Shown: positions 13,117 to 61,303 of the stretch, in pieces
Position numbering within the stretch: position 1 is the stretch's first letter
Layout of the letters: each line of letters begins with the position of its first letter
DNA from: Paludibacteraceae bacterium
GTDB lineage: Bacteria > Bacteroidota > Bacteroidia > Bacteroidales > Paludibacteraceae
Length of the DNA: 61,436 nucleotides
Reading direction: 5' to 3'
NCBI GenBank assembly: GCA_024399835.1
Contig: JAKSNK010000009.1
Coordinates: forward strand, 1 to 61,436
Position numbers and translations under genes: made by a program
The notes under the pieces: generated by a model
Database searches by the model: none
What the model was told of the DNA's origin: nothing
What the model saw: only the letters and a program-made list of their open reading frames with translations

Positions 13117-13938
13117 TTAGAGGTCGGTATAGGCGATATGAGTAAGATAGAGTCCGTCAGGCGGAGCAGACTGTCCGGCTGAGCAGCGATTGCGTGCATC
13201 AATGACGGACTGAAAGTCGTCAATCGACAGTTTATGCCGTCCCACATCAAACAGAGTACCGACAACGGCACGCACCATATTGCGCAAGAAACGGTCTGCC
13301 GTGATGGTGAAGTAGGAAATCGGGGAATCGGGGAATTGGTGAACCGGTGAATCGGGGAATTGGGGAAGCGGGGAATCGGTGAATCGGTGAACCGGTGAAT
13401 CGGGGGATGGGGGAAGCGGTTGCCAATATGCCTCAGTGACGGTGCAGAAAGTAGTTTTGACATCGGTATGCACCTTGCAGAACGAAGCAAAGTCGTGGCG
13501 ACCGACAAGCAGCGCAGCCGCCCTGTTCATGGCATCAAAGTCCAATCCGGGTGCGACATAAGTTCGCAAGTGCAGATTGAAAGGATCTTTGCACTGAGTA
13601 ATATGGTATTGGTAAGTTCGCGCTACAGCAGAGAACCGCGCATGCGCAGAGTCAGCAACAGGAAAGATATCATAGACAGCTATTGCAGAAGGCAATAAGC
13701 TGTTGAGTTTAGAGGAGAGGAGTTTAGAGTTTAGAGAAGAAGGATAATCAAAGTGGGCATACATCTCGAGGGCATGCACACCAGCATCGGTTCGTCCGGC
13801 AAAAGTGAGAGCAACAGGACAGCGCAAGATAGTAGAGAAAGCTTGCTCCAAGACCTGCTGCACAGTAGTGCCTTCCGGCTGCGACTGCGAGCCGTGGAAA
13901 GGAGTACCGTAATATGCGAAGCGGACGAAATAACGCAT
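13117..13938 (-). CDS. truA: tRNA pseudouridine synthase A, with two repeat inserts
   Basis: TruA converts U38-U40 in the anticodon arm of tRNAs to pseudouridine. The catalytic Asp 51 sits in the family motif AGRTDAGVH, and FCKVHTDVK and DRFLRNMVR are recognisable. Two stretches do not belong to the family: residues about 66-80 (SSLNSKLLSSKLNS), from a tttagag-type repeat, and residues about 174-208, built of DSPVHRFT-like octapeptides, from the gattcacc octamer repeat. The second lies just before the conserved DRFLRNMVR strand. Both keep frame, so the enzyme is probably functional with surface loops enlarged. Confidence 0.92.
   Translation of the reverse strand: MRYFVRFAYYGTPFHGSQSQPEGTTVQQVLEQAFSTILRCPVALTFAGRTDAGVHALEMYAHFDYPSSLNSKLLSSKLNSLLPSAIAVYDIFPVADSAHARFSAVARTYQYHITQCKDPFNLHLRTYVAPGLDFDAMNRAAALLVGRHDFASFCKVHTDVKTTFCTVTEAYWQPLPPSPDSPVHRFTDSPLPQFPDSPVHQFPDSPISYFTITADRFLRNMVRAVVGTLFDVGRHKLSIDDFQSVIDARNRCSAGQSAPPDGLYLTHIAYTDL
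13315..13419. repeat. In-frame gattcacc octamer array inside truA
   Basis: About thirteen degenerate 8-base units (ggtgaatc and variants on the plus strand). Three units encode eight residues, so the peptide repeats as DSPVHRFT-like blocks. Confidence 0.85.
13699..13743. repeat. In-frame tttagag repeat inside truA
   Basis: Units gagtttagag repeat with small spacers and encode a Ser/Leu/Asn/Lys-rich loop between conserved TruA segments. Confidence 0.6.
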
Positions 13939-13951
13939 GGGGGGTTATTTG

Positions 13952-15535
13952 TTATTTGTGATTTGTGATTTGTGATTTGTGATTTGTGATTGGTGATTGG
14001 TGATTGGTGATTTGTGATTTATGATTGGTTAGAGAGGTGATATATTGGTGAATTTCAGGGGAGAGGTTAAGGCGGTAAGCGAGGTAGAAAGTGGGGGCAA
14101 AGATGACCAGTGTGCGGAGAAGGGCATCCCAGACAACAGAGCCATCGGCAATGAAAGCAGACAGATAAGCAGTCCAAAGATAATTGAGTACAAAAGCCAC
14201 TGCCAACAGCAAGACAATCAACAACTGCCCACGCGAGAAGGGACGAATATGCAATGCACACGAAGCCACCACAATGACCAAGATATAATAAACCGTATCG
14301 GCAATGACCGTTGCCCATGCAGCACCCATCATTCCCCAATGCGGAATAAGGTAATTATTGAGAAGCAGTGCCGAAACAGTCAGCACTAACGAATTGAGCA
14401 AAGCAAACGCATACCAGCGCGAATACGACAACGCCGGCAAGAAAACATTAAACGAAGCAACCATGAGTTGCCCAACACCCAACAGCAACACCACATTGCG
14501 TGCAGAAGCATACAAAGCACCATTGGGCAAAATGACATAGATAAGGTCGATATTGATCCAAATGACCAGCAAGATAAGTCCTCCCACCAGCATAAGGTTG
14601 GCACTCGATTGGTGTATCAACCGAGCGATAGCAGAAGAATCGTCGTTCTTGACCGCTACGGACAACTCGGGCTGCACAATCGCCACGAGCGAGCGGTAAG
14701 GGATAGAGACCATAACCGCCATATAGGTGGCAATGGCAAAAATACCCGTATAACTCAGTCCCATTTGCGCCGTAATGAAGAACGACGAGAGCATAGGCGC
14801 CAAAACGGAAGTGACCGCCGAGACCAAGAGGAAAAGCGTATATAATAAATAGGAACGCACCAGCGGGCGTTGCGCGCGCAAGAAAGTCCAATCAGGAGTC
14901 AGCATAGCAGCCATAGATCCATGCGCCATGCACAACTTAGCTACATAGCCCATGTTAATCAAAGCAGCGACAGCATAGGTTGCACAGAACGACCAAATGA
15001 AACCGTCCATACTGAGCCAACGGAACGCATACAGCAGGTAAGCGATTAACAGCCCCAGCCGCACCACCACTTCACGCACGAAACGCGGCAGGACAATGTG
15101 CATAAGGACATTGGCATTGGTCTCAAAGACGGTCTGATAGAGCATAAAGAAGGCAATGGGCAAGACAAGGTAGTAATAATTGACGAACAGCGGAGACTTA
15201 TCGCCAAAGAACGCCGACAAAGGCGTATGGCATGCCACATAGACCAACGCAAAGAGTGCAAAACCCACCAAAGGCACCAGCAAAGTCCAAAAGAAGAAAC
15301 CGTGTGTTCCTTCGGAACTACTAAAATACGGGAAGAAACGGATGATAGAAGACGAAGTACCCAATTGCGCCAACCCGACGAAGAGCGTCGCTGCATCAAC
15401 CATAACTCGCGCCAACCCGACTTCCTCTGCAGTGAGGAAGCGAGTCAGCACGAAGAAAGTGGTGATGAAGCCCAATGCCACCCCTAAATAGGTGACAATG
15501 GTGCCTTGTATGGATTGTTTAGCAATTTGTCCCAT
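13952..15535 (-). CDS. Polysaccharide flippase (MATE/Wzx-like) with repeat-coded tail
   Basis: The 527-residue protein has about 12-14 hydrophobic segments and starts GQIAKQSIQGTIVTYLGVALGFITTFFVLTR-like, as in polysaccharide biosynthesis flippases of the MOP superfamily; it would move lipid-linked glycans across the inner membrane. The last 28 or so residues (SLTNHK and QITNHQSP units) are encoded by a gattggt/gatttgt heptamer array and are not part of the family. truA begins 14 bases downstream. A second, unrelated-looking flippase lies at 18.1 kb. Confidence 0.85.
   Translation of the reverse strand: MGQIAKQSIQGTIVTYLGVALGFITTFFVLTRFLTAEEVGLARVMVDAATLFVGLAQLGTSSSIIRFFPYFSSSEGTHGFFFWTLLVPLVGFALFALVYVACHTPLSAFFGDKSPLFVNYYYLVLPIAFFMLYQTVFETNANVLMHIVLPRFVREVVVRLGLLIAYLLYAFRWLSMDGFIWSFCATYAVAALINMGYVAKLCMAHGSMAAMLTPDWTFLRAQRPLVRSYLLYTLFLLVSAVTSVLAPMLSSFFITAQMGLSYTGIFAIATYMAVMVSIPYRSLVAIVQPELSVAVKNDDSSAIARLIHQSSANLMLVGGLILLVIWINIDLIYVILPNGALYASARNVVLLLGVGQLMVASFNVFLPALSYSRWYAFALLNSLVLTVSALLLNNYLIPHWGMMGAAWATVIADTVYYILVIVVASCALHIRPFSRGQLLIVLLLAVAFVLNYLWTAYLSAFIADGSVVWDALLRTLVIFAPTFYLAYRLNLSPEIHQYITSLTNHKSQITNHQSPITNHKSQITNHK
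13955..14038. repeat. Heptamer array at the 3' end of the flippase gene
   Basis: Twelve or so 7-base units (gatttgt, gattggt) overlap the flippase stop codon. Seven residues are coded per three units, giving ITNHQSP-like peptide repeats. Confidence 0.85.
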
Positions 15536-15540
15536 TATGA

Positions 15541-15575
15541 GAGAACTAGGATACTAGATAACTAGACAACTAGAT
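15541..15575. repeat. Short actag-type tandem repeat
   Basis: Four to five units of about 7-8 bases containing aactaga lie between the FKBP lipoprotein stop and the flippase start. Related units occur near 8.2 kb. Confidence 0.55.
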
Positions 15576-17468: not shown

Positions 17469-18086
17469 TTATTTGATTAGTTGATTCATACGAGCGAGGT
17501 ATTTGCCAATGATGTCAAATTCGATATTGACCACAGTACCTTCCTGAATGTATTGGAAATTGGTTACTTCGTGAGTATAAGGGATAATGCAGACAGAGAC
17601 ATACCCCTTGTCGCCAACCACATCGGGTTCGCAGGCAGTAAGGGAAACGCCATTGATAGTAACACTGCCTTTGTCCACACAGAAATACCCACGGCGAATC
17701 ATCTCGGGTGTACTATCGTAGCAGAAGCGGTAGTACCAACTGCCTTCCGTCTCATGCACATCAACACAAGTGGCACGGCAATCCACATGCCCCTGAACAA
17801 TATGTCCGTCCAAGAGTTTTTCCAGAGACATAGCCCTCTCCAGATTGACCCAATCGCCCACTTTCAGCAAGTCGAGGTTAGTAAGCCGCAAGGTCTCCTG
17901 CATAGCCGTTACGGTATATGTATCATCTTCGTTCCTCACGACCGTGAGACAGACACCGTTGTGGGCAATGGACTGGTCTATGCCCATCGTAGCCGGGTAA
18001 GGATTGCGCAAAGTGAAGTGCTTGTTGGTTTGGTCCTGTTCAATACGAACCACCTGAGCCATTGTTTCTACTATTCCAGAAAACAT
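17469..18086 (-). CDS. ribE: Riboflavin synthase alpha chain
   Basis: The 205-residue protein begins MFSGIVET, the hallmark of riboflavin synthase, and holds two tandem lumazine-binding beta-barrels (first near 1-90, second near 95-190, starting GHIVQGHVD). It dismutates two 6,7-dimethyl-8-ribityllumazine molecules to riboflavin. Gene order (FKBP downstream, flippase upstream) gives no riboflavin operon, and no RFN riboswitch was seen upstream. Confidence 0.93.
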   Translation of the reverse strand: MFSGIVETMAQVVRIEQDQTNKHFTLRNPYPATMGIDQSIAHNGVCLTVVRNEDDTYTVTAMQETLRLTNLDLLKVGDWVNLERAMSLEKLLDGHIVQGHVDCRATCVDVHETEGSWYYRFCYDSTPEMIRRGYFCVDKGSVTINGVSLTACEPDVVGDKGYVSVCIIPYTHEVTNFQYIQEGTVVNIEFDIIGKYLARMNQLIK

Positions 18087-18126
18087 GATAGTTGATAGTT
18101 GATAGTTGATAGTTGATAATTGATAG
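18087..18126. repeat. gatagtt heptamer array
   Basis: Five to six near-perfect copies of the 7-base unit gatagtt fill the gap between ribE and the flippase. The same family is found in frame in the WbqC-like gene at 23.7 kb. Confidence 0.85.
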
Positions 18127-19554
18127 TTATGATTTTTTTAGTAATTTCTTAAGATCGAGTATATAGAATATTGCGACGAAAACGACCAATAAAGCCGTTC
18201 CGACCAACATGCGTATCCACATATTGGGATAAGCAGGCAGGTAGAACACCAACAGAAGGGCTATCGTCAATGCCGCATAAACACCTATGCGACGAAGATC
18301 ATAAGGCACCTTCAGGTGCTTGCGTCCCACGAAATAACTGAGCAGCATAACCACCAAATAGCAGACCAGACTGCTACCGCAGGATGCCCAATAACCGATA
18401 CGCGGTACAAAGACGATTTGCAGCACCAAGGTGATAGTCAACCCGATGAGAGAAAGATACGCTCCCCAACGCGTTTGGTCGGTAAGTTTATACCAGAAAG
18501 AGAGGTTGAAATAGATGCCTTGGAATACATAAGTCCACAATACCACAGGCACAATGCGCAAACCCTCCCAATAGGCAGCGCTGATGATGTATTTGAATAT
18601 ATCCAGATAGACGATTACGCCCAACAGGATAAGGAACGAGAAGATAATGTAATACTTCATGGCATCCGCATACGCTTCTACGGATTGGCGGTCCTTGTGC
18701 TTGGCAAAGACAAACGGCTCGTACGCATATCGGAATGCCTGTGTGAACATCATCATCACCATAGCGACCTTGAAGCACGCGCCATAGATACCCAATTGCG
18801 ACTGAGCGTCTGCGCCGGGATAGAGGTAAGGGAAAAGAATACGGTCGAGGGTTTGGTTCATAATACCCGCTACACCCAACACCAGCAACGGCAGCGAGTA
18901 ATGCAACAACTGCCTGAGCAAAGAGAACGAATATCGTCCTCCCTTGGGCAAAGTGAGAGGTATGAGAATAAGCGTTTGTATAGTGGTAGCCAAGATATTT
19001 GACAAGAAGACATAGAAGACATCATTGCGATGCAGCACCACCAAGAAGAGAAGATTGAAACCGATATTCAAGACAACGAACAGCAGTTTGAGTACGGCAA
19101 AAGTGAGGGGGCGTTTTTGGTAGCGCAAGTACGCAAAGGGAATGCAAGCGAACGCATCCATAGCCACGGTAAGTGCCATCATTGCGATAAACGAAGCATG
19201 TGAGTCATAACCCAATGCCGAAGCAATCGGCTGACGCAACAAGACACAAACGACGGCGAAGAGCACCGAAGTAGAAAGAACCGTGAGCAGAGAAGTCTTA
19301 TACACCGATTGAGGGTCACAGTCCTCGCGATTGGCAAAACGGAAGAAACCAGTCTCCATGCCATAAGTAAGAACGACCAGCAACAGGGCTGTCCACGCAT
19401 AGAGGTTGGTGACGATACCATAGTCGGCAGTATTTGCCAAGACATAAGTATAAAGCGGCACCAACAAGTAGTTGAGGAACTTGCCTATGATGGAAGAGAG
19501 ACCGTAGATAGCGGTTTCCTTCGCCAAAACTTTCATATTGAGTGCGTTATTCAT
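18127..19554 (-). CDS. Oligosaccharide flippase, Wzx-like
   Basis: A polytopic membrane protein of about 475 residues with roughly 12-14 hydrophobic segments and the N-terminal pattern LAKETAIYGLSSIIGKFLNYLLVPLYT, typical of O-antigen/polysaccharide flippases. It would translocate undecaprenyl-linked oligosaccharides. The chosen ATG overlaps the last codons of rsmI (GATGAATAA); an in-frame ATG four codons upstream and another six codons downstream are alternatives. Genes for glycosyltransferases are absent nearby, so the substrate is unknown. Confidence 0.85.
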   Translation of the reverse strand: MNNALNMKVLAKETAIYGLSSIIGKFLNYLLVPLYTYVLANTADYGIVTNLYAWTALLLVVLTYGMETGFFRFANREDCDPQSVYKTSLLTVLSTSVLFAVVCVLLRQPIASALGYDSHASFIAMMALTVAMDAFACIPFAYLRYQKRPLTFAVLKLLFVVLNIGFNLLFLVVLHRNDVFYVFLSNILATTIQTLILIPLTLPKGGRYSFSLLRQLLHYSLPLLVLGVAGIMNQTLDRILFPYLYPGADAQSQLGIYGACFKVAMVMMMFTQAFRYAYEPFVFAKHKDRQSVEAYADAMKYYIIFSFLILLGVIVYLDIFKYIISAAYWEGLRIVPVVLWTYVFQGIYFNLSFWYKLTDQTRWGAYLSLIGLTITLVLQIVFVPRIGYWASCGSSLVCYLVVMLLSYFVGRKHLKVPYDLRRIGVYAALTIALLLVFYLPAYPNMWIRMLVGTALLVVFVAIFYILDLKKLLKKS

Positions 19555-22531: not shown

Positions 22532-22579
22532 TAATTGGTTAATCGGTTAATCGGTTAATCGGTGAGTTGGTTAATCGGG
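22532..22579. repeat. Octamer tandem repeat (ggttaatc type)
   Basis: Five to six copies of ggttaatc/ggtgagtt units lie between the transporter start and the ilvE stop. They are a variant of the gattcacc octamer family. Confidence 0.8.
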
Positions 22580-23623
22580 TTAGTTGATGACGGTGCACCA
22601 ACGGTGTTTGTCTTCGGCTCTGCCGTATTGTATATCCTGCAGGGCATTCCGCAGACCCAACAGAACGGGTCCCGGAGCTTGAGGCAGAGTATAGGTAATA
22701 TTGTTGTCAGGGTCTATCACCTTATCAATCGGCGAAATGACACAAGCCGTTCCGCATGCCGCCGCCTCGCTCATCCCGTTCAGTTCGTCCAAGCGGACAT
22801 GCCGGCGCGTAACTTTCAGTCCACGCTCTTTTGCCAGCGTCATCAGCGAGTCGTTGGTAATGGACGGCAGAATAGCCGACGAACGGGGAGTAATATATTC
22901 ATTTCCCCGTATGCCGATAAAGTTGGCTGCCGAACACTCGTCTATATAACGGTGATAGCGGCTGTCCATAAACAGGCAGTCGTACCCCTGCAAGTGGGCA
23001 GTCTCCGTGCCACGGAACGAGGCGGCGTAGTTGCCTCCAACCTTGAAATGTCCTGTACCGAACATAGCCGAGCGGTCCACATGCCGGTTGACGATAAAAG
23101 TCTGACAGGGAATACGGTTGGAGTGCGCCTCCTTGTAGTACGGTCCGATGGGCGAAGGAATAATGATAAACTCAAAATCCCATCCGGGTCCTACGCCTAA
23201 TTTGGGCGTTGTGCCTATCAGCAGGGGACGCAGATAAAGTGTAGCACCCGTTTCGTAAGGCGGAATGAACTTCTTATTCTTATGAACAGCCATCTGCACC
23301 ATCTGACCATAAAGTGCCGTCGGTACAGGAGCCATATATAATCCTTCTGCCGAACGAGCCATGCGCTCTGCATTGGCTTGCCAGCGGAAAACACGGATTT
23401 TACCGTCTATGCCACGGAACACCTTCAAGCCCTCAAACGCCTCCTGTCCGTACTGGAGAGCCGTAGCGCATACATGCATCGGCAGTATTTTGTCGCGTGT
23501 AGCATGCGGTGCGCCCCATTCGCCCACCAAGCGTCCGTCCTGCCACTTGCCGTGGAAGGATGCCCGAACGATATAATCCGTTTCGGTGTAACTAAATCGT
23601 AATTCTTGCCAATCTATATTCAT
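22580..23623 (-). CDS. ilvE: Branched-chain amino acid aminotransferase
   Basis: The 347-residue protein is a fold-type IV PLP enzyme. The Schiff-base lysine is Lys 194 in GHFKVGGNYAAS, and LQYGQEAFEGLKVFR and YLRPLLIGT are the other family markers. It interconverts Leu/Ile/Val and their 2-oxo acids. Length and motifs fit the Bacteroidetes/eukaryote-like class. The ATG shares one base with the TAA stop of the WbqC-like gene, indicating translational coupling. Confidence 0.95.
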   Translation of the reverse strand: MNIDWQELRFSYTETDYIVRASFHGKWQDGRLVGEWGAPHATRDKILPMHVCATALQYGQEAFEGLKVFRGIDGKIRVFRWQANAERMARSAEGLYMAPVPTALYGQMVQMAVHKNKKFIPPYETGATLYLRPLLIGTTPKLGVGPGWDFEFIIIPSPIGPYYKEAHSNRIPCQTFIVNRHVDRSAMFGTGHFKVGGNYAASFRGTETAHLQGYDCLFMDSRYHRYIDECSAANFIGIRGNEYITPRSSAILPSITNDSLMTLAKERGLKVTRRHVRLDELNGMSEAAACGTACVISPIDKVIDPDNNITYTLPQAPGPVLLGLRNALQDIQYGRAEDKHRWCTVIN

Positions 23624-24171
23624 TACAGTAGGGTCTCGGGACCCTTTTCAAACAATGTGTCCAATATACTCAATTCATTTTGCCAAGCATGGCGGTCGGT
23701 CCATATTTGTCCGGACCAGGAACTTGAATAGTTGATAGTTGACAGTTGACAGTTGACAGTTGATAGTTGATAGTTGATAGTTGACAGTTGATAGTTGATA
23801 TTTGGTTTATTCTGTATCAAGTTCCAGATGGTCTCGGTCAAAGCGCTGTTCAGGTCAATCAGGTACTTCGTTTCGCGCTCGTAGAAGGGTCGCAGGTAGT
23901 CCTCGTAGTAGAGGAAGTAAGGGGTATGTTCGTACTCCGAGCGAATCGCCATCCAGTGCTGGTGTTGCCACCGCTGCTGATAACTGATTTGTATGTCGCG
24001 TGTCAGTTGTTTGCTCTCCACCTTGCAAACAGGGACCGTCAAACGGATATTGTTGCGCAGGAGGCAACGGTTGCGGAAGGTCTGTTTCTCGAAGGTCTCG
24101 TTGATTTCAATCGTTGCCGGCAGTTGTCGATACCAACTGAGCGGACCCAAATATGTTGTAGGTAAGACCAT
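23623..24171 (-). CDS. WbqC-like family protein with heptamer-repeat insert
   Basis: The 182-residue protein starts VLPTTYLGPLSWYRQL and contains NRCLLRNNIRLTVPV and SYQQRWQHQHW, as in the WbqC-like family found in surface-glycan and antibiotic loci. The biochemical role of the family is unsettled. Between about residues 125 and 152 an insert of NYQLSTI heptapeptides, coded by the gatagtt DNA array, interrupts the protein before the conserved end (SSWSGQIWTDRHAWQNELS). It is translationally coupled to ilvE. Confidence 0.8.
   Translation of the reverse strand: MVLPTTYLGPLSWYRQLPATIEINETFEKQTFRNRCLLRNNIRLTVPVCKVESKQLTRDIQISYQQRWQHQHWMAIRSEYEHTPYFLYYEDYLRPFYERETKYLIDLNSALTETIWNLIQNKPNINYQLSTINYQLSTVNCQLSTINYSSSWSGQIWTDRHAWQNELSILDTLFEKGPETLL
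23722..23805. repeat. In-frame gatagtt/gacagtt heptamer array in the WbqC-like gene
   Basis: Twelve consecutive 7-base units keep the reading frame and code four NYQLSTI-like heptapeptides. Confidence 0.88.
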
Positions 24172-24189: not shown

Positions 24190-24310
24190 ACAGCGTAACC
24201 TCTCGCTCTACTACCGCTATACTACCGCTCTACTACCGATGTACTACCGATAAGAACACGCTCTACTCCCGTTCTACCCCCGTTAAGCACCCGTAACACT
24301 ACCGTAACCG
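24190..24310. repeat. 11-base tandem repeat (tactaccgct type)
   Basis: At least six 11-base units (tactaccgcta, tactaccgatg) pass into ctcccgttctacccc and cgtaac-type units. The arrangement parallels the one inside the giant gene near 7.15-7.3 kb. It fills the gap between the WbqC-like start and the lepB stop; no other feature is visible there. Confidence 0.75.
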
Positions 24311-25701: not shown

Positions 25702-26349
25702 TTACTTTTTTATCTGTTCTGCCGCCAATACGGCACCGAGTGCAAAACCCTGACGCCCCTTGGCGGTATGTTTGATTTCAATTGTATCTTCGGGACTGTC
25801 CCAAGTGACGGTATGAATGCCAGCCACTTCGCCCTCACGAATGGAGTCAATTTGTAAATTTGTAAATTTGTAAGTTTGTAAGTCCTCCGCCAAAGTTTTG
25901 GCGGTGCCGGAGGGTTTGTCCAACTTGTGTACATGGTGTATCTCCGTGATGGACGGAGTGTATTGGGTATAAGGAGCCAACAGGGCAGCCAGTTGCTTAT
26001 TCAACTCAAAGAGGACATTGACACCAATGGAGAAATTACTTTTCCAGACAAGCCATTCGTGTCCGGTCTTCTTTCGTAATTCTTCATTCTTAATCCTCAA
26101 TTCGTCCACATTCCACCCGGTAGTACCGCAGACGACAGGGACATTGTGCGACCATGCGCGAAGGATGTTGTCCTTGGCAGTGGCAGGAGTGGTAAATTCG
26201 ATGGCAACTTCGGCAGAGGCGAAAGCAGGGCTATCAAAGTCCGAGAGGTTATCCTTATCTATCGTGCACACAACCTCGTGCCCACGCGAGAGGGCAATTT
26301 GCTCAATTATATGCCCCATTTTACCGTAACCTATTAATGCTATTTTCAT
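25702..26349 (-). CDS. dapB: 4-hydroxy-tetrahydrodipicolinate reductase, with two repeat inserts
   Basis: DapB reduces tetrahydrodipicolinate precursors with NAD(P)H in lysine/diaminopimelate synthesis. The nucleotide-binding start (KIALIGYGKMG), CGTTGW and the catalytic motif EIHHVHKLDKPSGTA (His 138-139, Lys 145) are intact. Residues about 82-94 (DELRIKNEELRKK) and about 157-168 (TYKFTNLQ) are coded by aattctt-type and tttgtaa heptamer repeats and are probably enlarged loops. The total length of 215 is shorter than common DapB enzymes despite these inserts. A good promoter lies directly upstream, divergent to udk. Confidence 0.92.
   Translation of the reverse strand: MKIALIGYGKMGHIIEQIALSRGHEVVCTIDKDNLSDFDSPAFASAEVAIEFTTPATAKDNILRAWSHNVPVVCGTTGWNVDELRIKNEELRKKTGHEWLVWKSNFSIGVNVLFELNKQLAALLAPYTQYTPSITEIHHVHKLDKPSGTAKTLAEDLQTYKFTNLQIDSIREGEVAGIHTVTWDSPEDTIEIKHTAKGRQGFALGAVLAAEQIKK
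25846..25881. repeat. In-frame tttgtaa repeat inside dapB
   Basis: Four to five units of the type tttgtaaa/tttgtaag follow one another and code the TYKFTNLQ stretch. Confidence 0.75.
26068..26106. repeat. In-frame aattctt-type repeat inside dapB
   Basis: Degenerate units aattctt, cattctt and aatcctc (7-8 bases) code the charged RIKNEELRKK segment. The same family occurs inside uvrD and near 40.45 kb. Confidence 0.6.
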
Positions 26350-27169: not shown

Positions 27170-27595
27170 ATGTTGTTTCAACTCTTTTGGACATACTTAA
27201 AAATCGGCACTTTCACCATAGGTGGAGGTTATGCCATGTTGCCGCTGATTGAGCAGGAAGTGGTGGACAAGCACCATTGGTTGGACGACAAGGAGTTTAT
27301 GAACATGATTGCTTTGGCGCAAGCAGCCCCCGGACTGATAGCCGTCAACAGTGCCATCTTTATCGGACACCGATTGGCAGGTTGGAAGGGCACGGTCGCC
27401 TGTGTATTAGGAGCAGTATTACCGTCGATTATCATTATCTTATTGATTGCAATGTTCTTTAAGGAGATAAAGGACAATCCTACTGTTGAAGCCGTCTTCA
27501 AGGGAGTCCGTCCTGCCGTGGTTGCCCTGATTGCTGCCACGGTCGTCAGGATGGTGAACCGGTTAATCGGTGAATCGCGAGACCGTAAAAAGTGA
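27170..27595 (+). CDS. Chromate transporter, N-terminal half, apparently shortened
   Basis: The 141-residue product matches the first half-unit of the split CHR family (FWTYLKIGTFTIGGGYAMLPLI, AQAAPGLIAVNSA). Half-units usually have about 180-190 residues and six helices. This one stops soon after PAVVALIAATVVRM, where an octamer repeat (cggttaatcggtgaatc) supplies the last residues and the stop follows. It may therefore lack the final helices. It would pair with the product of the next gene to move chromate or another anion across the inner membrane. Stop and next start overlap. Confidence 0.8.
   Translation: MLFQLFWTYLKIGTFTIGGGYAMLPLIEQEVVDKHHWLDDKEFMNMIALAQAAPGLIAVNSAIFIGHRLAGWKGTVACVLGAVLPSIIIILLIAMFFKEIKDNPTVEAVFKGVRPAVVALIAATVVRMVNRLIGESRDRKK
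27554..27592. repeat. Octamer repeat at the end of the chromate transporter half-gene
   Basis: Units ggtgaacc, ggttaatc and ggtgaatc run into the stop codon region and replace the expected C-terminal helices of the half-transporter. Confidence 0.6.
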
Positions 27596-32635: not shown

Positions 32636-32644
32636 AACAATCTG

Positions 32645-32676
32645 CAAATATACAACAAAAATTTGGAATATGCAAA
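32645..32676 (-). promoter_or_regulatory. Promoter of uvrD
   Basis: The minus strand has TTTG, 20 bases, TATATTTG; the uvrD ATG at 32635 follows within ten bases, so the 5' leader is very short. Confidence 0.7.
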
Positions 32677-32724
32677 TAAAAAATGCGGCATTACAACACA
32701 AATATCACTTTATCTTAAAAAATA

Positions 32725-44509: not shown

Positions 44510-46489
44510 ATGATGAAACAAAAATTATTACAAACTGTTGCTGAAGTATTTTGCCCTTCAACTGGTAATGTTTTTTACATTCCTAATTATCAAAGGGGAT
44601 ATAAATGGACTAAAGAAAATGTGCAAACATTATTAGATGATTTGCTTAGATTTGTGCAGTCTGGAGATACGACAAATAAGTATTATTGCCTTCAAAACAT
44701 TTCACTTATTGAGGATGAGGCAAATAAACGGTATAATGTAGTTGATGGTCAACAAAGATTGACTACATTGTACATTATTCTTTCTTATTTAAAATATCGA
44801 CAATTCATTGCTGAAAATTTTGACTCCAATTCCTTAATTTATGCAATAAGGACAGAAACTGGCGATTTCTTACGCACAGAAGTCGCATCCGGTAAAATTT
44901 GGGAGAAAACAATAGTTCCTCAAAATGCAAGACATAAAGATGAGTATTATATTTGTGATGTTGCAGAAGGAATTCATCAATGGTTTAGCATCTTTGAAAA
45001 AGATACAGATACAGAAAAAGATAAAGATAAATCAAAATATGTAGATGCTATCCTTAATCACTTACAACTGATTGTAAATGATTTGACATCAAATGATAAT
45101 ACAGAAGAAGCACTCTTTGCCGGATTAAACGGAGGTAAGGTTGATTTGGATGGTGCAGATTTGGTACGTGCGGAATTGATTACCCGTTCTGCTGAAGAAA
45201 AATATGGTAAACGCGAAACAGATAACCACGAGAAAGTAAACGAATTTAGAGTTCGTGTTGGTATGGAATTGGATGAAATAAATCATTGGTGGGCGCAACT
45301 AGATCACCAAACATTTTTCATCCAAATGTTGCCGGATAAAACAAATGATAACAAACTATTTAACAGCAACGAATATCCTATAGATATTTTATATCAGTTG
45401 TATTACGAATGCGATTATGAACACGCAGAAAATACCAACAAACAAGAAGAATTGGATTTTCGTTTCTTTGAACATGGGCGTGATACACAAGGTGACAAAA
45501 ATATAAATGATCATTGGGAACTTTATGAAAGTGTAATTGCCTTGCATCGAACAATGCAAGAATGGTTTGAAGATAATGATTTATATCATTGGTTGGGGTA
45601 TTTGTTCTTTAATTTTAAAGGCAAAGGTGAAGGAGACAATAATATATCTTTTAGGAATATTTATAAGAAATGGGCACAATGGAAGAAGTGGAATATTAAG
45701 GAGGATAGATTTACTCGCAAAACTGAATTTGTAAAATATCTTCAAAATCTTTCTAAAAATCTAATTTTACAAGATTATGGCGAAGAAAATGCATCTGAAG
45801 AAGAAAGACGATTAAACTTAATTTCTGCTATTAGTGATTTGCAATCAGATTGGTACAATAATTCCAATCAATTAGGGCGAATATTGGTGCTTATGGACAT
45901 TCTAATATGTACAAATAATTATCAGTATACAGAAACAAAAAAAGATGGTAAAAAACAACAATACGCAGACCGTCTAAAAGTGGATAATTTTAGAATAAAT
46001 AGTGAGGATAAAGAACATATTCGTTCTTGCACTCCTAATGTGAAAGAAGGTAGCCAAAATCCCAATAAGTCAACTTGGCAAGAATATATAGATAATCTTT
46101 TCCCCGAAGAAAACGAAATTTCAGATGAGTACCAATTGAAGAAAGAACTTCAAGAAAAACTTAATCTCATTAATGATGAAATGTTATCCGAAGAAAACAT
46201 TAATGAAATAAATGCTATAATGAATAAATATGGGCAGAATTCGATTGGCAATCTCGTCCTATTACATAAGCATGTTAATAGGAGTTATGGTAATGCGTTA
46301 TTCAATGAAAAAATTCAGAGAATAATTATGGAATATATGCAGAAAGAGAATTATATTCGTCCATTTACCTTCCTCGTCTTTTTGAGCAAAATTAAAGATA
46401 GCAATGCGGATTGGCGTTGGAACATAGGGGATATTAAAGCAAATATTGAAAATATTAAACAACAAGTAGAACATTTTTATAGTTTATAA
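44510..46489 (+). CDS. DUF262 protein with DUF1524-like nuclease end (GmrSD-type)
   Basis: The 659-residue protein starts with a DUF262 ParB-like NTPase domain: IPNYQRGYKW (about 24-33) and the signature VDGQQRLTT (78-86). Near the C-terminus EHIRSCTPN (His 503) and GNLVLLHKHVNRSYGN (Asn 590) match the layout of a DUF1524 His-Me finger nuclease. This is the composition of GmrSD type IV restriction enzymes that cut modified DNA. It is followed after three bases by a second DUF262 gene and preceded by a WYL regulator, so an anti-phage role is likely. Target modification is unknown. Confidence 0.8.
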   Translation: MMKQKLLQTVAEVFCPSTGNVFYIPNYQRGYKWTKENVQTLLDDLLRFVQSGDTTNKYYCLQNISLIEDEANKRYNVVDGQQRLTTLYIILSYLKYRQFIAENFDSNSLIYAIRTETGDFLRTEVASGKIWEKTIVPQNARHKDEYYICDVAEGIHQWFSIFEKDTDTEKDKDKSKYVDAILNHLQLIVNDLTSNDNTEEALFAGLNGGKVDLDGADLVRAELITRSAEEKYGKRETDNHEKVNEFRVRVGMELDEINHWWAQLDHQTFFIQMLPDKTNDNKLFNSNEYPIDILYQLYYECDYEHAENTNKQEELDFRFFEHGRDTQGDKNINDHWELYESVIALHRTMQEWFEDNDLYHWLGYLFFNFKGKGEGDNNISFRNIYKKWAQWKKWNIKEDRFTRKTEFVKYLQNLSKNLILQDYGEENASEEERRLNLISAISDLQSDWYNNSNQLGRILVLMDILICTNNYQYTETKKDGKKQQYADRLKVDNFRINSEDKEHIRSCTPNVKEGSQNPNKSTWQEYIDNLFPEENEISDEYQLKKELQEKLNLINDEMLSEENINEINAIMNKYGQNSIGNLVLLHKHVNRSYGNALFNEKIQRIIMEYMQKENYIRPFTFLVFLSKIKDSNADWRWNIGDIKANIENIKQQVEHFYSL

Positions 46490-46492: not shown

Positions 46493-48547
46493 ATGAAAGC
46501 ATTAAATATTCGGACATTATTAAGCAATTGCTCTGGTAAGAAGAATACTACAACTCGTCTTATAGTCCCAGAGATTCAAAGAGAATATGTTTGGGGTGCA
46601 AAAAACAATGTTGAGAAACTCAAAGTTTTTATCCAAGATATAGAAAAGGATCTTAAGAACGAAAAAAAGAAGAATATAGGTTTTTTATATTCTTACCAGG
46701 CGCACAGTAATGAACACTATATTATTGATGGGCAGCAAAGACTCACATCTATAGTGCTACTGTTATATATTTTAGCCATAAAAGAAGATAAATATGATGA
46801 GTTTGCAGAACTGCTTAAGGTCGATAGTCCAACTCTCCAATTTTCGTATAATGTTCGTCCTCTAACGGAACAATTCTTACATTTGTTATTTCAAGAGCGT
46901 GATTTTATTAGTGCGAATGACATCAAAGATAAGATTTGGTATATTAGATCATTTGATAACGATAAAACTATTGAGTCAATGTTGAATGCACTCGATACCA
47001 TGCAAAATATGGGGCTACAATGTCAATTTGATAAGATTCTGGATAATGTTGAGTTTTGGTACTTTGATGTTGCCCAAACATCACAGGGTGAAGAATTATA
47101 TATTTCTATGAATAGCCGAGGGCAAAAGTTAACACAATCTGAACATTTGAAGCCGAAATTGTTTGACAAACTCAAGGATAATAACATTAACTACGGTAAA
47201 GAATGGGATAATTGGGAAGAGTTTTTCTTTGTTAATAAGCCCCAAGAGTCTCTTGTAGGTGCAGATGATGTAGCACTTCATAATTTCCTTAAAATAGTAA
47301 TTGAGTTGTTTAAACAGAAATCCGCGGATCAAAATATAATTAACGATGTGCAGTATATTGATTTGCCAAACATCAAACATCATTTTGATAATTTTGAAAA
47401 GTTACATCAGCAAAATATAGTTGATAGAGCATTACTAAACTCATTTTATAATCAAGACATAAAGAATGTTGATTTATTTGTTCTAGAGGCATTATTGGGA
47501 ACTTATGATAAACTTGATGGAAATTTACAAGAGCTCAACAGATTACTCAGAATCGTTAAAAATACATTGATATACAATCCGAATACAAGTATTGAAAATT
47601 TACATAAGTTTATAGGTAAAATCAAGGGACCCAATTTATATGCTGCAATATGCCAATGTCCCACTGAATATGTCCAAAATTTCAACGGACAAATAACTGA
47701 TGGCTTTATTCCTATTGAGGAGTTTGAGAAAATTGTGGGAATTGAAAAAGGATTTGTAAATGAACAAAATATTATTGAAGCTGAGCAATTTGCATTTTTT
47801 AATAGTAAAATACACGCTTTGTATCGAAATGAAAATGGCAAGTTGGATTGGGGGAATTTTCAAAGTAAATTATCCAATGCCAAGAAATATTTTGACAATA
47901 ATGGCGTGACTATTGCCTATTCAAAAGATTGTAACTTATTAAGACGATTTATTTCCTATTTCGACACTTGGGGGTGCTTTTGGGGAATAAGATATGATAA
48001 TACTGCTGATACTTGGAAAGAAATTTTAACCAAAAATTGGGATATAAATAATCTCCCATCACGAATACCTGCCATCCACAGACTTCTTTTGTTAGATGAA
48101 CAAATAGATTTTGCAAATTATGAATCAATCATAAATCAAGCAAATGAACAGCAAAAAATCGTACAAAAAGAATTGGTAAGTACAAATTTATTAACTGCGA
48201 TAGAAAAAGGATGTTATTTGAATTGGCGTGACCCTAATTATTTACTATATCCCTATAATGTCAAATCAGATAGGAAGAAATATATGATAGGAACTATCAG
48301 AAACCACATGTTATCAAGTTTATGTAACGAAGGGAAAATCTGCTCTGAACAAAAGTTAATCCAATCCGATTATTTTTGGGGATGGACAATTCATTTTTCA
48401 TACGATAAAAAACATTTCGCTTGGACATATAATAATGTGTTGGAATTATGGAATAACCAAGAAATTATACAAAGAGTTTCATTATCGGAATGTATAAATA
48501 GTAGTGATCCAAAAAGAAAATTCATTGATATTTTAAATAGTATTTGA
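46493..48547 (+). CDS. Second DUF262 protein, no recognisable nuclease motif
   Basis: The 684-residue protein has a DUF262 domain with VPEIQREYVWG (about 25-35) and IIDGQQRLTS (77-86). The C-terminal half shows no clear His-Me motif; it ends with a Trp-rich segment (WGWTIHFSYDKKHFAWTYNN), perhaps a DNA- or partner-binding domain. Tight spacing to the previous gene implies a two-subunit complex. Paired DUF262 genes of this kind occur in defence islands. AT content is high. Confidence 0.75.
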   Translation: MKALNIRTLLSNCSGKKNTTTRLIVPEIQREYVWGAKNNVEKLKVFIQDIEKDLKNEKKKNIGFLYSYQAHSNEHYIIDGQQRLTSIVLLLYILAIKEDKYDEFAELLKVDSPTLQFSYNVRPLTEQFLHLLFQERDFISANDIKDKIWYIRSFDNDKTIESMLNALDTMQNMGLQCQFDKILDNVEFWYFDVAQTSQGEELYISMNSRGQKLTQSEHLKPKLFDKLKDNNINYGKEWDNWEEFFFVNKPQESLVGADDVALHNFLKIVIELFKQKSADQNIINDVQYIDLPNIKHHFDNFEKLHQQNIVDRALLNSFYNQDIKNVDLFVLEALLGTYDKLDGNLQELNRLLRIVKNTLIYNPNTSIENLHKFIGKIKGPNLYAAICQCPTEYVQNFNGQITDGFIPIEEFEKIVGIEKGFVNEQNIIEAEQFAFFNSKIHALYRNENGKLDWGNFQSKLSNAKKYFDNNGVTIAYSKDCNLLRRFISYFDTWGCFWGIRYDNTADTWKEILTKNWDINNLPSRIPAIHRLLLLDEQIDFANYESIINQANEQQKIVQKELVSTNLLTAIEKGCYLNWRDPNYLLYPYNVKSDRKKYMIGTIRNHMLSSLCNEGKICSEQKLIQSDYFWGWTIHFSYDKKHFAWTYNNVLELWNNQEIIQRVSLSECINSSDPKRKFIDILNSI

Positions 48548-51348: not shown

Positions 51349-52158
51349 AAAAAATTGAATCTGGTCAACCCATTCTATGAAAAGTCAAGGGGAAATCTTA
51401 ACAATCTGCCATCAATATTTTTAGGCGGATGTTGAACCGCCACTCTGATCTGCCACTCAAAAACAACCGGTGGAAAAAGAGGATATTTTGCAACAGAACA
51501 CACTCATAATCAGCAAAATACAGAAGGCATCATCAACGAGTTGGAAAACTCATAGTGGCAGATGGCAGACACTTTTCTATAATTATAAATCCTCGTGCGT
51601 ACATATAATAGGTATAAGTATAAAAATATCTGCCACTATCCGCCACTGCCGCCACTCATTTTTCCTGTTTGCAACATAACATCAACATAACATGGTCGAT
51701 GGGTCGCAATACCATTAAGGAACTGATTTGCGTTAGCAGTCGGTTCCTAATTCTTAATAATCGTACTAAATTTATAATTGGCGGGCGGAAGAGCGAATAA
51801 TTCTATATGTATTTATTATTTTCTGCCCTATGCGGGGATTATATACGTGTTATATAGAAAAACACTACTTTCGCCCGCCTAAAATGGTGAGATGTTTTCT
51901 ATGCTTCTTCATAATTGATTTAGTATCAGATAATTAATCCTTTATTGTTGTCTTCCAACGTAGGCGGGCAGAAGTGAACGATGAGCGGGCGGTTAAAAAA
52001 GGTTTGGAAAGTGTCGGTCAACGGTCTGCCAACCCTCGACTATTTGCTTACTCAAAAAGACAGCAAAAAGACCTCAAAAAAAAATCTTTATTGAAAAATC
52101 CGATTCACCAACTCACCGATTCACCGATTCAGCGATTCACCCACAAAATTACTATTTT
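51349..52158. other. Gene-free, AT-rich segment with nested inverted repeats
   Basis: No convincing gene was found in these 800 bases; the open frame at 51470-51679 has no recognisable content. Clusters of gccact units occur near 51430-51450 and 51620-51660. A nested dyad lies at 51780-51879: GGCGGGCG (51780-51787) with CGCCCGCC (51872-51879), and inside it TTCTATAT (51801) with ATATAGAA (51852). The octamer gattcacc array is at 52099-52145. It may be the scar of a lost element at the right end of the defence-like island. Confidence 0.5.
52099..52145. repeat. Octamer gattcacc array upstream of the rfbA promoter module
   Basis: Five to six 8-base units (gattcacc, aactcacc, gattcagc). A similar array also lies beside the aroB copy of the promoter module, so array and module may travel together. 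Confidence 0.75.
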
Positions 52159-58995: not shown

Positions 58996-59050
58996 TACCG
59001 TACTTTTTACGGTACATATACGGTACATATACGGTACATAAAGCCACGAT
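58996..59050. repeat. Dyad and three 11-base repeats upstream of surE
   Basis: TACCGTA/TACGGTA forms a 7-bp stem with five-base loop (58996-59014), and acggtacatat repeats three times. It could be a glmM terminator lacking a T-run or an operator for surE; it ends a few bases before the surE ATG. Confidence 0.5.
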
Positions 59051-59056: not shown

Positions 59057-59905
59057 ATGAATATACTTGTTGTTAACGATGACGGTTGGGGAGCAAAGGG
59101 GCTGATGACTTTGCTGCCGCATATCTTGCCCTTGGGCAAGGTAACGGTAGTAGTGCCTGACGGTCCGCGTAGCGGCATGAGCAATGCCGTCACCGCCACG
59201 CGCCCCGTCTCATTGTGCAAAATGGATCTCCCCGATTCACCAATTCACCGATTCCCCGATTCACCAACTCACCAATTCACCGATTCACCGATTCACCGAT
59301 TCCCCGATTCACCAATCCAGATTTACACCACCGACGGTACTCCCAGCGATTGTGTCAAGTTAGCCATCAATGTGCTATTCAAGGGTGATGCCGGTCAAAT
59401 CGACTTGGTGATTAGCGGTATCAACCATGGTTCGAATGCGTCGATTAACCTCATTTATTCGGGAACGATGGGCGCATGCTTTGTCGCTGCCGAGCACGGC
59501 ATACCCGCCATTGGTTTTTCCATTGACGACATGTCCGAGAACCCCGATTTCTCGTACATGGAACCCTATTTGGACCAATTACTTAATTCCCAACTCCCCG
59601 ATTCCCCGATTCACCAACTCACCGATTCACCGATTCACCAACTCACCGATTCACCGATCATCTTGAACATCAATGCGCCCAAAGGACCTATTCACGGGGT
59701 GCAATGGACTCGTCAAAGTCGGGCACATTGGGCACAGGAAATGCAACCTGTAACCCTCCCGGACGGCGAAACACGCTATGCGTTGGCAGGGTTTATGGTC
59801 AATGACGAACCGAATGCTAACAATACCGATTTGACGGCGATGAAAAACGGCTATATTTCCATTCAGCCGTGTAAAGTAGATATGACCGACTATGAAGCGC
59901 TTTGA
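59057..59905 (+). CDS. surE: 5'-nucleotidase SurE, with two octamer-repeat inserts
   Basis: SurE dephosphorylates nucleoside monophosphates. The metal site is intact: Asp 8-Asp 9 in VVNDDG, Ser 39 in PRSGMS, and Asn in SGINHGSN (about 120-127). Residues about 58-87 and 177-201 are octapeptide repeats (DSPIHRFP, DSPIHQLT) coded by gattcacc DNA arrays, the first just before IYTTDGTPSDCV and the second before LNINAP. Both leave frame and flanking strands intact, so the enzyme is probably active with long surface loops. Confidence 0.92.
   Translation: MNILVVNDDGWGAKGLMTLLPHILPLGKVTVVVPDGPRSGMSNAVTATRPVSLCKMDLPDSPIHRFPDSPTHQFTDSPIHRFPDSPIQIYTTDGTPSDCVKLAINVLFKGDAGQIDLVISGINHGSNASINLIYSGTMGACFVAAEHGIPAIGFSIDDMSENPDFSYMEPYLDQLLNSQLPDSPIHQLTDSPIHQLTDSPIILNINAPKGPIHGVQWTRQSRAHWAQEMQPVTLPDGETRYALAGFMVNDEPNANNTDLTAMKNGYISIQPCKVDMTDYEAL
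59228..59317. repeat. In-frame gattcacc array 1 in surE
   Basis: Eleven degenerate 8-base units code three to four DSPIHRFP-like octapeptides. Confidence 0.88.
59585..59659. repeat. In-frame gattcacc array 2 in surE
   Basis: Nine 8-base units (gattcacc, aactcacc, gattcccc) code DSPIHQLT repeats. Confidence 0.88.
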
Positions 59906-60167
59906 TAAATATTGGATAGGCATCGTGTTTGGATTGCTCCTTCCGGCAGTATTCATATTGTTGTATCTGAACCACTATAACCTGTGGTTCCTGCTGGATA
60001 CAGGGCGCTATGCGTTTCCTACTTATTCCAAACTGTGCTTGTTGAGCGTTTTCCCTAATTTGGCTCTCATTTTCGTCTTCTATACCACCGACACTTGGAA
60101 TTTGAGCAAAGGGGTATTGATAGGTGCATTCCCGTATATGTTGGCTGCCATTGCCTTTACGATATGA
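59892..60167 (+). CDS. Small inner-membrane protein between surE and lpxB
   Basis: The 91-residue protein has three hydrophobic segments (IGIVFGLLLPAVFILLYL, LCLLSVFPNLALIFVFY, GVLIGAFPYMLAAIAFTI). It overlaps the surE end by 14 bases and the lpxB start by four, so it is translated with both. Similar small membrane proteins are found at this place in other Bacteroidales; the role is unknown. Confidence 0.75.
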   Translation: MKRFDKYWIGIVFGLLLPAVFILLYLNHYNLWFLLDTGRYAFPTYSKLCLLSVFPNLALIFVFYTTDTWNLSKGVLIGAFPYMLAAIAFTI

Positions 60168-61303
60168 AGTATTTTCTCATTGCCGGCGAGGCGTCGGGCG
60201 ATTTGCACGGCGCTAATTTGATAACTGCTTTGCAGGAGCGTGACCCTTCCGCCACTTTTGTGGGACTGGGGGGCGACAAGATGCGCGATGCCGGTTGCCG
60301 ATTGCTACAGGATTACCGGAATATGGCATTCATGGGCGTTATCGCCGTGCTTGCCAATCTGCGCAAGATACGACAGAATTTCCGCATTGCCGAGCAGGGA
60401 CTATTGAACGAGCAACCCGATGTGCTGGTACTGATTGACTATCCGTCGTTTAATCTCAAAATAGCCGAGTTCTGCAAAAAGCATTTGCCACAAACCAGGA
60501 TTGTATATTACATTCCTCCTAAAATATGGGCATGGAAGACTTTCCGTGTACACAAGATTGCACGATTGTCCGACCTTATTTTAGGCATTTTCCCTTTCGA
60601 ACCGGCATTCTATGCCAAATATGGGTATAAGTGCGAGTACATCGGTAATCCCACCATGGACTCCATCCGCGAGTATCAATCCACCGGTTCACCGATTCAC
60701 CAACTCACCGGTTCACCGATTATTGCCTTGCTGCCCGGCAGCCGGAGAAGTGAGATACGCAACTGTCTGCCCAAGATGTTAGAGGCAGCACGCAGAGTCC
60801 AATCTTTTACCGGTGTGCCCGGAGGCACCCGATTCACCGATTCACCGATTCGTATCGTCGTCACCGCTGCCCCCGGCATAGAAGACTCTTTCTATGCGCC
60901 TTATCTGCAAGGAGAAGAACTGACGCGAGATACTTATGATTTGGTGACGCATGCAACGGCGGCAGTGGTCAATTCGGGAACGGCAACTTTGGAAACGGCT
61001 TTGTTGGGATGTCCGCAAACGGCAGTTTATAGGATAGTCTGCTCACGCTGGTTAGGTTGGCTCAAACCGTTTATTTTTAAGATACCTTTCTTCACCTTAG
61101 TTAATATCATACCCGCGCGCGAGGTGATAAAGGAACTGATTGCGTTCAATTTCACTACCGAGAATATCGTTCGCGAACTCACCCGCCTGCTGACCGACGA
61201 ACCGTATCGGCAACAGATGTTGGCTGATTATACCGAGATACGCCAAATTTTAGGCGACCACCCGGCAGCCGCCACCGCCGCCGAACGCATTATGGCAATG
61301 TGA
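60164..61303 (+). CDS. lpxB: Lipid-A-disaccharide synthase, with two octamer-repeat inserts
   Basis: From ATG 60164 (MKYFLIAGEASGDLHGANL) the protein has 379 residues. FVGLGGDKM, LIDYPSFNL, YYIPPKIWAWK and VNSGTATLETAL identify LpxB, which joins UDP-diacylglucosamine and lipid X at the inner membrane. Residues about 172-186 (TGSPIHQLTGSP), before the conserved IIALLPGSRRSEI, and about 215-229 (FTDSP) are coded by octamer repeats. The frame reaching 60095 is rejected since the ATG used here overlaps the previous stop. Confidence 0.93.
   Translation: MKYFLIAGEASGDLHGANLITALQERDPSATFVGLGGDKMRDAGCRLLQDYRNMAFMGVIAVLANLRKIRQNFRIAEQGLLNEQPDVLVLIDYPSFNLKIAEFCKKHLPQTRIVYYIPPKIWAWKTFRVHKIARLSDLILGIFPFEPAFYAKYGYKCEYIGNPTMDSIREYQSTGSPIHQLTGSPIIALLPGSRRSEIRNCLPKMLEAARRVQSFTGVPGGTRFTDSPIRIVVTAAPGIEDSFYAPYLQGEELTRDTYDLVTHATAAVVNSGTATLETALLGCPQTAVYRIVCSRWLGWLKPFIFKIPFFTLVNIIPAREVIKELIAFNFTTENIVRELTRLLTDEPYRQQMLADYTEIRQILGDHPAAATAAERIMAM
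60677..60721. repeat. In-frame octamer array 1 in lpxB
   Basis: Five to six units (ggttcacc, gattcacc, aactcacc) sit exactly between two Rossmann-fold halves of LpxB. Confidence 0.8.
60806..60850. repeat. In-frame octamer array 2 in lpxB
   Basis: Three clear gattcacc units follow a short Gly-rich segment (GVPGGT) and precede the conserved IVVTAAPG strand. Confidence 0.7.

Follow-up and report, generated by a model that had tools for sequence, protein, structure and literature searches.

How does a short tandem word come to lie, in frame, in the interior of one conserved gene after another? The question is raised by a stretch of 61,436 nucleotides—'the window' in what follows—from a bacterium of the family Paludibacteraceae (contig JAKSNK010000009.1 of assembly GCA_024399835.1, a draft genome of 1,759,035 bases in 46 contigs, 85% complete). 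Arrays of 7-, 8- and 11-base units are scattered along the window, and those of one octamer family enter genes such as truA, surE and lpxB. On balance, we think these arrays are probably dispersed, self-spreading short tandem repeats of the kind termed long simple sequence repeats (LSSR) or short tandemly repeated repetitive sequences (STRR): selfish-DNA-like, without an enzyme of their own, copied between loci, and filtered by selection. The STRR of filamentous cyanobacteria are short tandem repeats of this LSSR-like kind.

Arrays were collected with Tandem Repeats Finder at a score of 45, with at least 2.5 copies, at least 22 bases and a unit of no more than 35. Twenty-one in the window pass this filter (a looser run, at score 30, returns 84 rows) against none in one 3-mer shuffle, and in 19 of the 21 the unit is 7, 8 or 11 bases long. 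Further stretches of the same genome, 378 kb in all, add 95 arrays, again with none in the 3-mer shuffle. The sample thereby comes to 440 kb and 116 arrays, and in 98 of these the unit is 7, 8 or 11 bases. With settings identical for all groups, the density is 3.4 per 10 kb in the window alone and 2.64 in the whole sample—a figure biased upwards, because the further stretches were picked for carrying octamer matches. It is 1.31 in congeners (757 kb) and 0.49 in other families (267 kb from 20 genomes, 15 of which have no array at all). Tandem units of 5–11 bases, at many sites and above chance, are the mark of LSSR/STRR-type repeats, and this genome has them; no Rfam family is found in the window at the gathering threshold. 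The first-pass annotation of this DNA, made from the sequence alone, had reported several such families. GATTGGT, GATAGTT, GATTCACC and the 11-mer CGCTCTACTAC are indeed present, but TTTAGAG reaches only 2.1–2.4 copies, and of the minor types, actag and aattctt give weak rows (15540–15575 and 40446–40468).

The octamer family is where the observation proves larger than was claimed. Its word is degenerate, ARYYGGKG, with AATCGGTG as consensus and CACCGATT in the coding sense. Two-unit matches number 243 in the 1.76 Mb genome, and the reversed pattern, used as control, has none. Among 36 congeners, 28 have no two-unit match, seven have one or two, and one (G020) has 12; seven of 24 genomes from other families have one to three, and the reversed control gives 11 matches across both groups together. 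In a phylum sample of 395 genomes, the three-unit pattern occurs 183 times in this genome and 19 times in seven of the 394 others (control, 3). Because the congener and phylum counts are so low, the expansion is specific to this species among the genomes sampled. That a single unit family stands at 60 of the sample's loci and is nearly missing from relatives also bears out the earlier suggestion that something beyond slippage alone has spread it.

The units themselves carry further information. Counting as units all octamers that differ from AATCGGTG at no more than three positions, wherever these lie, we find A1 in 238 of 245 interior units, in and outside genes, G5 in all 245 and G6 in 237; positions 2, 3, 4, 7 and 8 vary, each with particular alternatives. 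This is not uniform decay, and since the pattern A-R-Y-Y-G-G-K-G is alike for coding and non-coding arrays, it is not a protein-level constraint either. Moreover, the variant AGTTGGTG, two changes from the consensus, recurs at 18 of the 60 loci and its single-step intermediates at 4 and 8, and G at position 2 is coupled with T at position 4 (odds ratio 7, p 5e-10). Octamer variants, in other words, have spread over many loci as whole units.

These two observations speak against a purely local origin, in which slippage acts on a chance duplication at each site and the units resemble one another because mutation prefers certain words. A polymerase bias shared by relatives does not predict that one species should be rich in an octamer which 36 congeners have rarely or not at all, nor do linked two-change variants sit easily with it. 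We regard such an origin as unlikely, though it has points in its favour. Units of 7, 8 or 11 also prevail in the congeners (70 of 99 arrays), and heptamers prevail in many bacteria, according to PMC4679880. Separate loci have no long unit strings in common, and the units at one LpxB slot, described below, differ greatly between species. Nor is the word private in the strictest sense: three exact units of GGTGAATC turn up in many phyla of the GTDB collection, in at least 118 stretches, a count that may lack records of our own genome and comes from a scan without a control word, so that whether the word is favoured across phyla cannot be read from it. Nitrospirae, Syntrophobacteraceae, Pseudomonas, Planctomycetota and several Bacteroidales families are among the records. 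LpxB was found in nine of ten octamer carriers among the matches listed, and is 32–45% identical to that of our species, from which it follows that these nine are not near relatives. Among them, Bacteroidales/Bacteroidetes metagenome-assembled genomes come nearest (42–45%), then Nitrospirae (40%) and a Burkholderiales metagenome-assembled genome (32%).

The same structured degeneracy, equal in coding and non-coding arrays, is what one might expect of a dedicated writer: a mobile element, or an enzyme with a degenerate template such as a reverse transcriptase, that inserts the words. Such a writer would also suit a private octamer-bearing module, the core pattern of which occurs 28 times in this genome and not once in 60 relatives. 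But the coding arrays, judged by eye, have neither module sequence nor constant ends, and viral contigs are nearly free of the octamer word (one stretch); candidate enzymes were not searched for. We consider a writer quite improbable. The slots in which the arrays lie are too diverged from those of relatives for target duplications to be visible. The module itself is composite, its AAATAAT heptamers being followed by a constant part, AGCTCGCACNAACGC...GGTACGAACAGAG, and this by octamers, and it often stands in tandem; besides the window, it is seen in stretches L207, L210, L212, L216 and L222 of this genome.

How often do the octamers enter genes? When rows shorter than 22 bases are dropped (81 become 70 in the 440 kb), 33 of the 70 arrays lie in Pfam-supported genes, 23 genes in all and mostly housekeeping. 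The hosts are TruA, SurE (2), LpxB (2), IspH, IspG (2, adjoining), SerRS, ArgRS (2), MurD, MurG, MurF-Alr, RsgA (5, forming one compound insert), QueA, TatD (2), MiaB/RimO, a TrxB-like flavoprotein, an ABC ATPase, a methyltransferase (2), RecQ, a RecD-like helicase, a GH31 enzyme and three large surface or repeat proteins. In the GH31 enzyme, the surface or repeat proteins, RecQ and SerRS, the array falls outside the matched domains. MutS and a neighbouring open reading frame (ORF) of 631 aa bear octamers too, and stand outside the count of 33. At the SerRS gene (L209, 12432–12506), nine octamer units in the stop-rich sense run over the 3' end, as if the gene end had been replaced and the stop supplied by the array.

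Comparison with relatives shows these segments to be extra, or replaced. Both flanks match one relative protein, in the right order, for 21 of 128 arrays: 20 octamer rows in 16 slots, and one heptamer array. Another 65 have no hit and 40 no shared hit; two further two-sided rows, of 23, were left out, 27549–27580 because the flanks are neighbouring paralogous genes and 59008–59040 because the frame is antisense between two genes. The TruA slot holds 35 residues against 2–7 in 13 relatives, and residues 174–207 are mostly missing from 23 of 23. SurE slot 1 holds 31 against 6–19 and slot 2 holds 25 against 8–22, each in 14 relatives, and at slot 1 the protein is longer than in 29 of 29. The gain is larger still in RsgA (74 against 4–17 in eight relatives) and MurD (49 against 6–17 in four), and it recurs in MurG (30 against 2–15 in seven), MurF (31 against 7 in one), QueA (17 against 6 in one) and ArgRS slot 1 (22 against 6–14 in seven). 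Elsewhere a loop has been exchanged rather than enlarged: LpxB slot 1 has 14 residues against 11–23 in 14 relatives, without net gain, and the two TatD slots have 13 against 13 and 17 against 15, in one relative, with no clear gain. ArgRS slot 2 (24 against 15–27 in seven relatives) shows no clear gain either. On known structures, SurE array 1 maps between residues 56 and 62 of 1ilv, a Thermotoga-type protein; in 1u0l the place of the RsgA array is between residues 216 and 222, just past the HTTT motif and before DTPG. Single-sequence structure prediction of SurE and TruA was useless (mean predicted confidence, or pLDDT, 30 and 40). Neither protein has a second copy in the assembled genome; the other hits fall in array segments.

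The claims of the first-pass annotation about genes can be judged against this. Arrays lie in open frames in truA, surE, lpxB, dapB and the WbqC-like gene, as it had proposed; uvrD (30284–32701), also named as a host, has just a 14-mer at 2.3 copies and CCTGCC at 2.8, with no notable insert against Pfam profiles. For two of the genes the evidence comes from the reading frame and domain match rather than from alignment with relatives: in the WbqC-like gene (23623–24171) no stop interrupts the array, which WbqC-like sequence precedes and an ending follows, and in dapB (25702–26349) the array lies in an open frame within the DapB_C match. Insertion as a gain holds for TruA and SurE but not for LpxB slot 1 or TatD. 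The annotation had conceded that its idea would fall if relatives carried the segments as conserved protein; those aligned mostly lack them.

That reading frames are kept, as it also claimed, is plain from all 21 two-flank arrays, in which the frame is open through the array and 90 bases to each side, independently of Pfam. Translated in its stop-free sense, the octamer gives DSPIHRFT, one cycle whatever the frame; read the other way, the consensus meets a TGA in all frames. Of the 33 gene arrays, 31 have CACC, the stop-free sense, on the coding strand, and the count itself, which admitted only open frames as genes, is responsible for some of this bias. In gene arrays of at least five units, unit identity is higher at lags 3 and 6 than at the other lags, by 0.062, a difference that none of 2000 unit shuffles attains; in non-coding arrays it is 0.016, and 395 of 2000 shuffles reach it. 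A three-unit register (24 bases, eight codons) is what growth that keeps the frame predicts.

Three other explanations are constrained by these results. Unit lengths that are not multiples of three would switch the frame, and arrays of such units could serve as contingency loci, which are typical of surface genes, turning genes on and off as units come and go; yet the hosts are mostly housekeeping genes, 21 of 21 frames are open, and gene arrays keep the three-unit register, all of which makes this very improbable. Alternatively, the inserted peptides might do something in the host proteins that selection favours, since many unrelated enzymes share the DSPIHRFT type, but the peptide is a mere stop-free translation of the repeat, the word is equally degenerate between genes and in them, and a sister species has unrelated peptides in seven shared slots; we would give selected function only a very slight chance. 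An artefact of assembly or binning comes to mind in a draft genome of 46 contigs and 85% completeness. With 21 of 21 frames kept and comparable arrays, of other words, in other assemblies, it is the explanation to which we attach least credence of all.

What the relatives have in place of the octamer goes beyond anything the first-pass annotation observed: different species fill shared slots with different words. The closest congener seen, G017 (LpxB 76%, ArgRS 85%), has no octamer match. Yet of 16 slots for which a G017 ortholog was examined, seven—SurE 1 and 2, LpxB 1 and 2, RsgA, MutS and the 631-aa ORF—carry significant heptamer repeats, only 1–31 of 4000 random segments being as periodic. 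The heptamer is AACTCTC in SurE slot 1 and CACCTGT in SurE slot 2. TatD slot 1 is borderline (78/4000), and the periodicity test finds no repeats in the G017 slots of TruA, MurD, MurG, ArgRS (1 and 2), QueA, TatD 2 and a second MutS slot, the last picked by eye; the MiaB pair, at 28% identity, was not treated as orthologous. Seven array-free slots of G017 match the degenerate octamer at 5–7 of its 8 positions, a likeness that an advocate of local origin can cite, but that may be at chance level and decides nothing.

LpxB slot 1 tells the same story more widely. Periodicity was tested there in 13 of the 18 relatives with LpxB (those of L196 and L199–L202 were left out), and tandem repeats are present in G017, G001, G034, G020, G014, G004 and G007, with units of 7, 7, 16, 16, 20, 23 and 24 bases. 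With the octamer of our own species, eight of 14 species have repeats in this loop, of differing units; a ninth, G025, is doubtful (82/2000), and none are detected in G062, G033, G016, G064 and G011. Words of a congener's own recur at two places in the stretches read: AATCCTG in G001, AAAGTCG in G007, and AACTCTC and ACAGGTG in G017. In G004 and G034 there are repeats of 16–23 bases built on GACCGCTACGCT-like and ACAGCGCAGCGG words (L203 8852, L194 8774, L247 2615), two of them in the LpxB loop; they look like longer dispersed species words. Some words may have wider currency. The heptamer YAACTRTCAACTRTCAACT, of the CAACTATC/CAACTGTC type, has 57 matches in our genome, 40 in G018 and 18 in G060, of another family, counts that have no valid control, because the word is mirror-symmetric. 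Stretches L320 and L321 of G060 contain clusters of 7- and 10-base arrays.

How might self-spreading repeats of this kind work? A short, unstructured, multi-copy word would be copied from existing arrays to new sites, perhaps when single strands anneal, or the template is switched, in the course of repair or replication, with the repeats themselves as microhomology. Once seeded, arrays would lengthen and shorten by slippage. Purifying selection would then purge copies in genes, except where the loop is tolerant, the sense stop-free and the frame kept, and within genes length could change only in steps that keep the frame: 24 bases for octamers and 21 for heptamers, three units in each case. 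The word in use would drift between lineages, and tolerant slots would be refilled or overwritten with the current one. The copying chemistry, the growth by slippage and the exposure and tolerance of the loops are what we infer here.

Several points weigh against this account. The near-invariance of A1, G5 and G6 is not explained by neutral copying and decay, and a binding protein or a templated writer might be involved. Recent copying of long array segments between loci is not seen: in 49 arrays (excluding those under 32 bases, those adjacent to modules and four of the five RsgA rows), runs of three or more units common to separate loci amount to 12 pairs against 9.5 in shuffles (53 of 200 reach as many). 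Runs of two units are in excess (164 against 119.8, 0 of 200 shuffles). Since no long strings are common to separate loci, seeds must be short, or unit order soon scrambled. The bias in sense is, as we said, partly of our own making, and the three-unit register could partly reflect selection on same-frame codons. Slot sharing with G017 could stem from repeated hits on the few loops that tolerate arrays, and the partial likeness of array-free slots means that local seeds may have played a part. No enzyme or intermediate was identified, no search for candidates having been made, and the data come from one genome of the species.

Were the slots inherited and then overwritten, or hit repeatedly because few loops can bear an array? 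The data fit either. We offer only tentatively the idea of a genome-wide rewriting: at one locus after another, the word that a lineage currently uses would replace the array in an inherited slot, and sister species would come to differ in repeat dialect. It is equally tentative, and rather doubtful, that this would amount to concerted evolution of 7–8 base words over dispersed coding loci, accomplished by self-spreading repeats that have no enzyme. If we are right, satellite-like bacterial repeats can densely colonize the interior of conserved and even essential enzymes, turn over between sister species, and supply conserved proteins with new loops. The arrays provide a natural map of insertion tolerance in such proteins, and species with different words in shared slots form a system in which the spread of short words through bacterial chromosomes might be tested directly.

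Some more familiar causes were considered and set aside. Loss of mismatch repair is one: MutS scores above its curated cut-off and covers model positions 2–839 of 840, and it hosts an octamer array itself. MutS was found in 26 of 27 congeners, the one lacking a match being G018 (54% complete). Hairpin or palindromic elements, such as the Rickettsia palindromic element (RPE) or repetitive extragenic palindromic (REP) sequences, are another: all seven single-stranded DNAs that were folded are less foldable than their shuffles (z +1.2 to +2.3), for which reason the arrays are not palindromic elements. The G-quadruplex class of heptamer (GGGNATC) has a run of at least three Gs and prefers four units; AATCGGTG has GG only, and the variant AATCGGGG makes up 60 of 439 units. 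As for phage as the vehicle, the viral collection has one stretch with three octamer units and none with either the reversed word or one shuffled word; a four-unit heptamer occurs in four.

The arrays and modules of the window are collected in the table.

Repeat features of the window (positions in the 61,436-nucleotide stretch)
Feature	Positions	Strand	Place
Octamer array closing composite module (about 115 bases, two tandem copies, 7951–8190)	8149–8190	+	
Heptamer array, GATTGGT x9	11415–11478	+	between two genes
Octamer array, 13 units, encoding QPLPPSPDSPVHRFTDSP...DSPI	13318–13421	-	inside truA
Heptamer array, GATTTGT/GATTGGT x11	13947–14026	+	junction of truA with next gene
Heptamer array, GATAGTT x6 (GATAGTT/GACAGTT family)	18086–18128	+	between two genes
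Octamer array, AATCGGTT type	22533–22580	+	intergenic
Heptamer array, CAACTATC/CAACTGTC type, 11 copies	23728–23804	-	in frame inside WbqC-like gene
11-mer array, CGCTCTACTAC x4	24204–24249	+	
AATTTGTA x4 array	25849–25881	-	in frame inside dapB
Short octamer array, stop-rich sense	27549–27580	+	3' end of ORF 27170–27595
Composite module copy: AAATAAT heptamers, constant part, octamers	40475–40611	-	
Octamer array	52098–52145	-	intergenic
11-mer array, TACGGTACATA x3	59008–59040	+	between phosphomannomutase gene and surE
Octamer array 1	59228–59319	+	inside surE
Octamer array 2	59587–59659	+	inside surE
Octamer array 1	60682–60721	+	inside lpxB
Octamer array 2	60827–60851	+	inside lpxB

The GATTCACC family comprises the arrays tabulated in truA, surE and lpxB, the intergenic one at 52098, and 40475–40523, within the module copy. 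The heptamers of the WbqC-like gene (23728–23804) go with the array at 18086–18128 in the GATAGTT/GACAGTT family. Among the 11-mers, TACGGTACATA recurs with 3–4 units at four places of the sample: the one tabulated, L206 5419–5451, L209 15487–15519 and L213 10881–10924. Arrays of another, TCGACCGTCGG, occupy 40652–40673 of the window and 11 other places in L207–L222, often with TATAAT before and CAAAGACCC after, and resemble part of a promoter-like or mobile unit. At 7130–7386, in the first part of a 2451-aa ORF (82–7437, minus strand), a 60-base repeat with 11-mer pieces accompanies a 36-base repeat that contains CCCCCTTCGGAGGGGG. The gene content, which includes a BspA-type leucine-rich repeat protein, GmrSD and a hybrid two-component regulator, is in keeping with Bacteroidales. 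GmrSD_N domains (PF03235) occur in two adjoining genes (44510–46489 and 46493–48547), possibly a defence pair, with a WYL-domain regulator (43372–44292) beside them.

How do these arrays compare with repeats already described? Rickettsia palindromic elements are repeated elements inserted in frame in conserved protein genes, and in this they resemble ours, but they are palindromic, whereas our arrays are tandem, variable in length and less foldable than shuffled sequence. The likeness to the short tandem repeats of cyanobacteria, which the first-pass annotation had pointed out, holds up well. It knew of no described counterpart in Bacteroidales; for Bacteroidetes there is one on a small scale, the TAACTGA heptamer arrays of five Bacteroidetes (MacGregor 2015, PMC4679880). 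No account of in-gene arrays of this kind in Bacteroidales appears among the best-ranked literature matches, in a search outside which most subscription journals lie.

LSSR, as Mrazek et al. 2007 is cited in PMC4679880 and PMC4692102, have units of up to 11 bases, heptamers being commonest, and a scattered phylogeny; they are mostly intergenic, and units in multiples of three are reported likeliest in coding regions. Our coding arrays use units of 7 and 8 instead, and 33 of the 70 octamer arrays are in genes. As far as we know, one word in some 20 conserved genes is absent from the LSSR and STRR accounts. The GGGNATC heptamers of Xanthomonas and Nostoc (Rehm et al. 2015, PMC4692102) and the TAACTGA heptamers of Beggiatoaceae, cyanobacteria and the five Bacteroidetes (PMC4679880) are mainly intergenic as well. 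The former likewise form a short tandem word dispersed chromosome-wide on both strands, with variable copy number and a degenerate position, near genes of general metabolism, and the cause of their spread is given as unknown. But they are 89–93% intergenic in Xanthomonas and 68% in Nostoc, are under-represented on the coding strand, and form quadruplexes, with four units preferred (PMC4692102); our gene arrays are nearly all of one sense, and our consensus has no GGG. The TAACTGA arrays match ours in their sporadic distribution among species, in having stops in one sense, and in a mobile-like spread without known mechanism (PMC4679880). They lie mostly immediately upstream of start codons, however, and their insertions into ORFs are said to succeed mainly at the protein periphery (PMC4679880); ours are often in the interior of conserved enzymes. 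These two are the nearest described kinds that we found. What sets the present case apart is the presence of 7- and 8-base words in the interior of many conserved enzymes, together with the reuse of the same slots by other words in other species.

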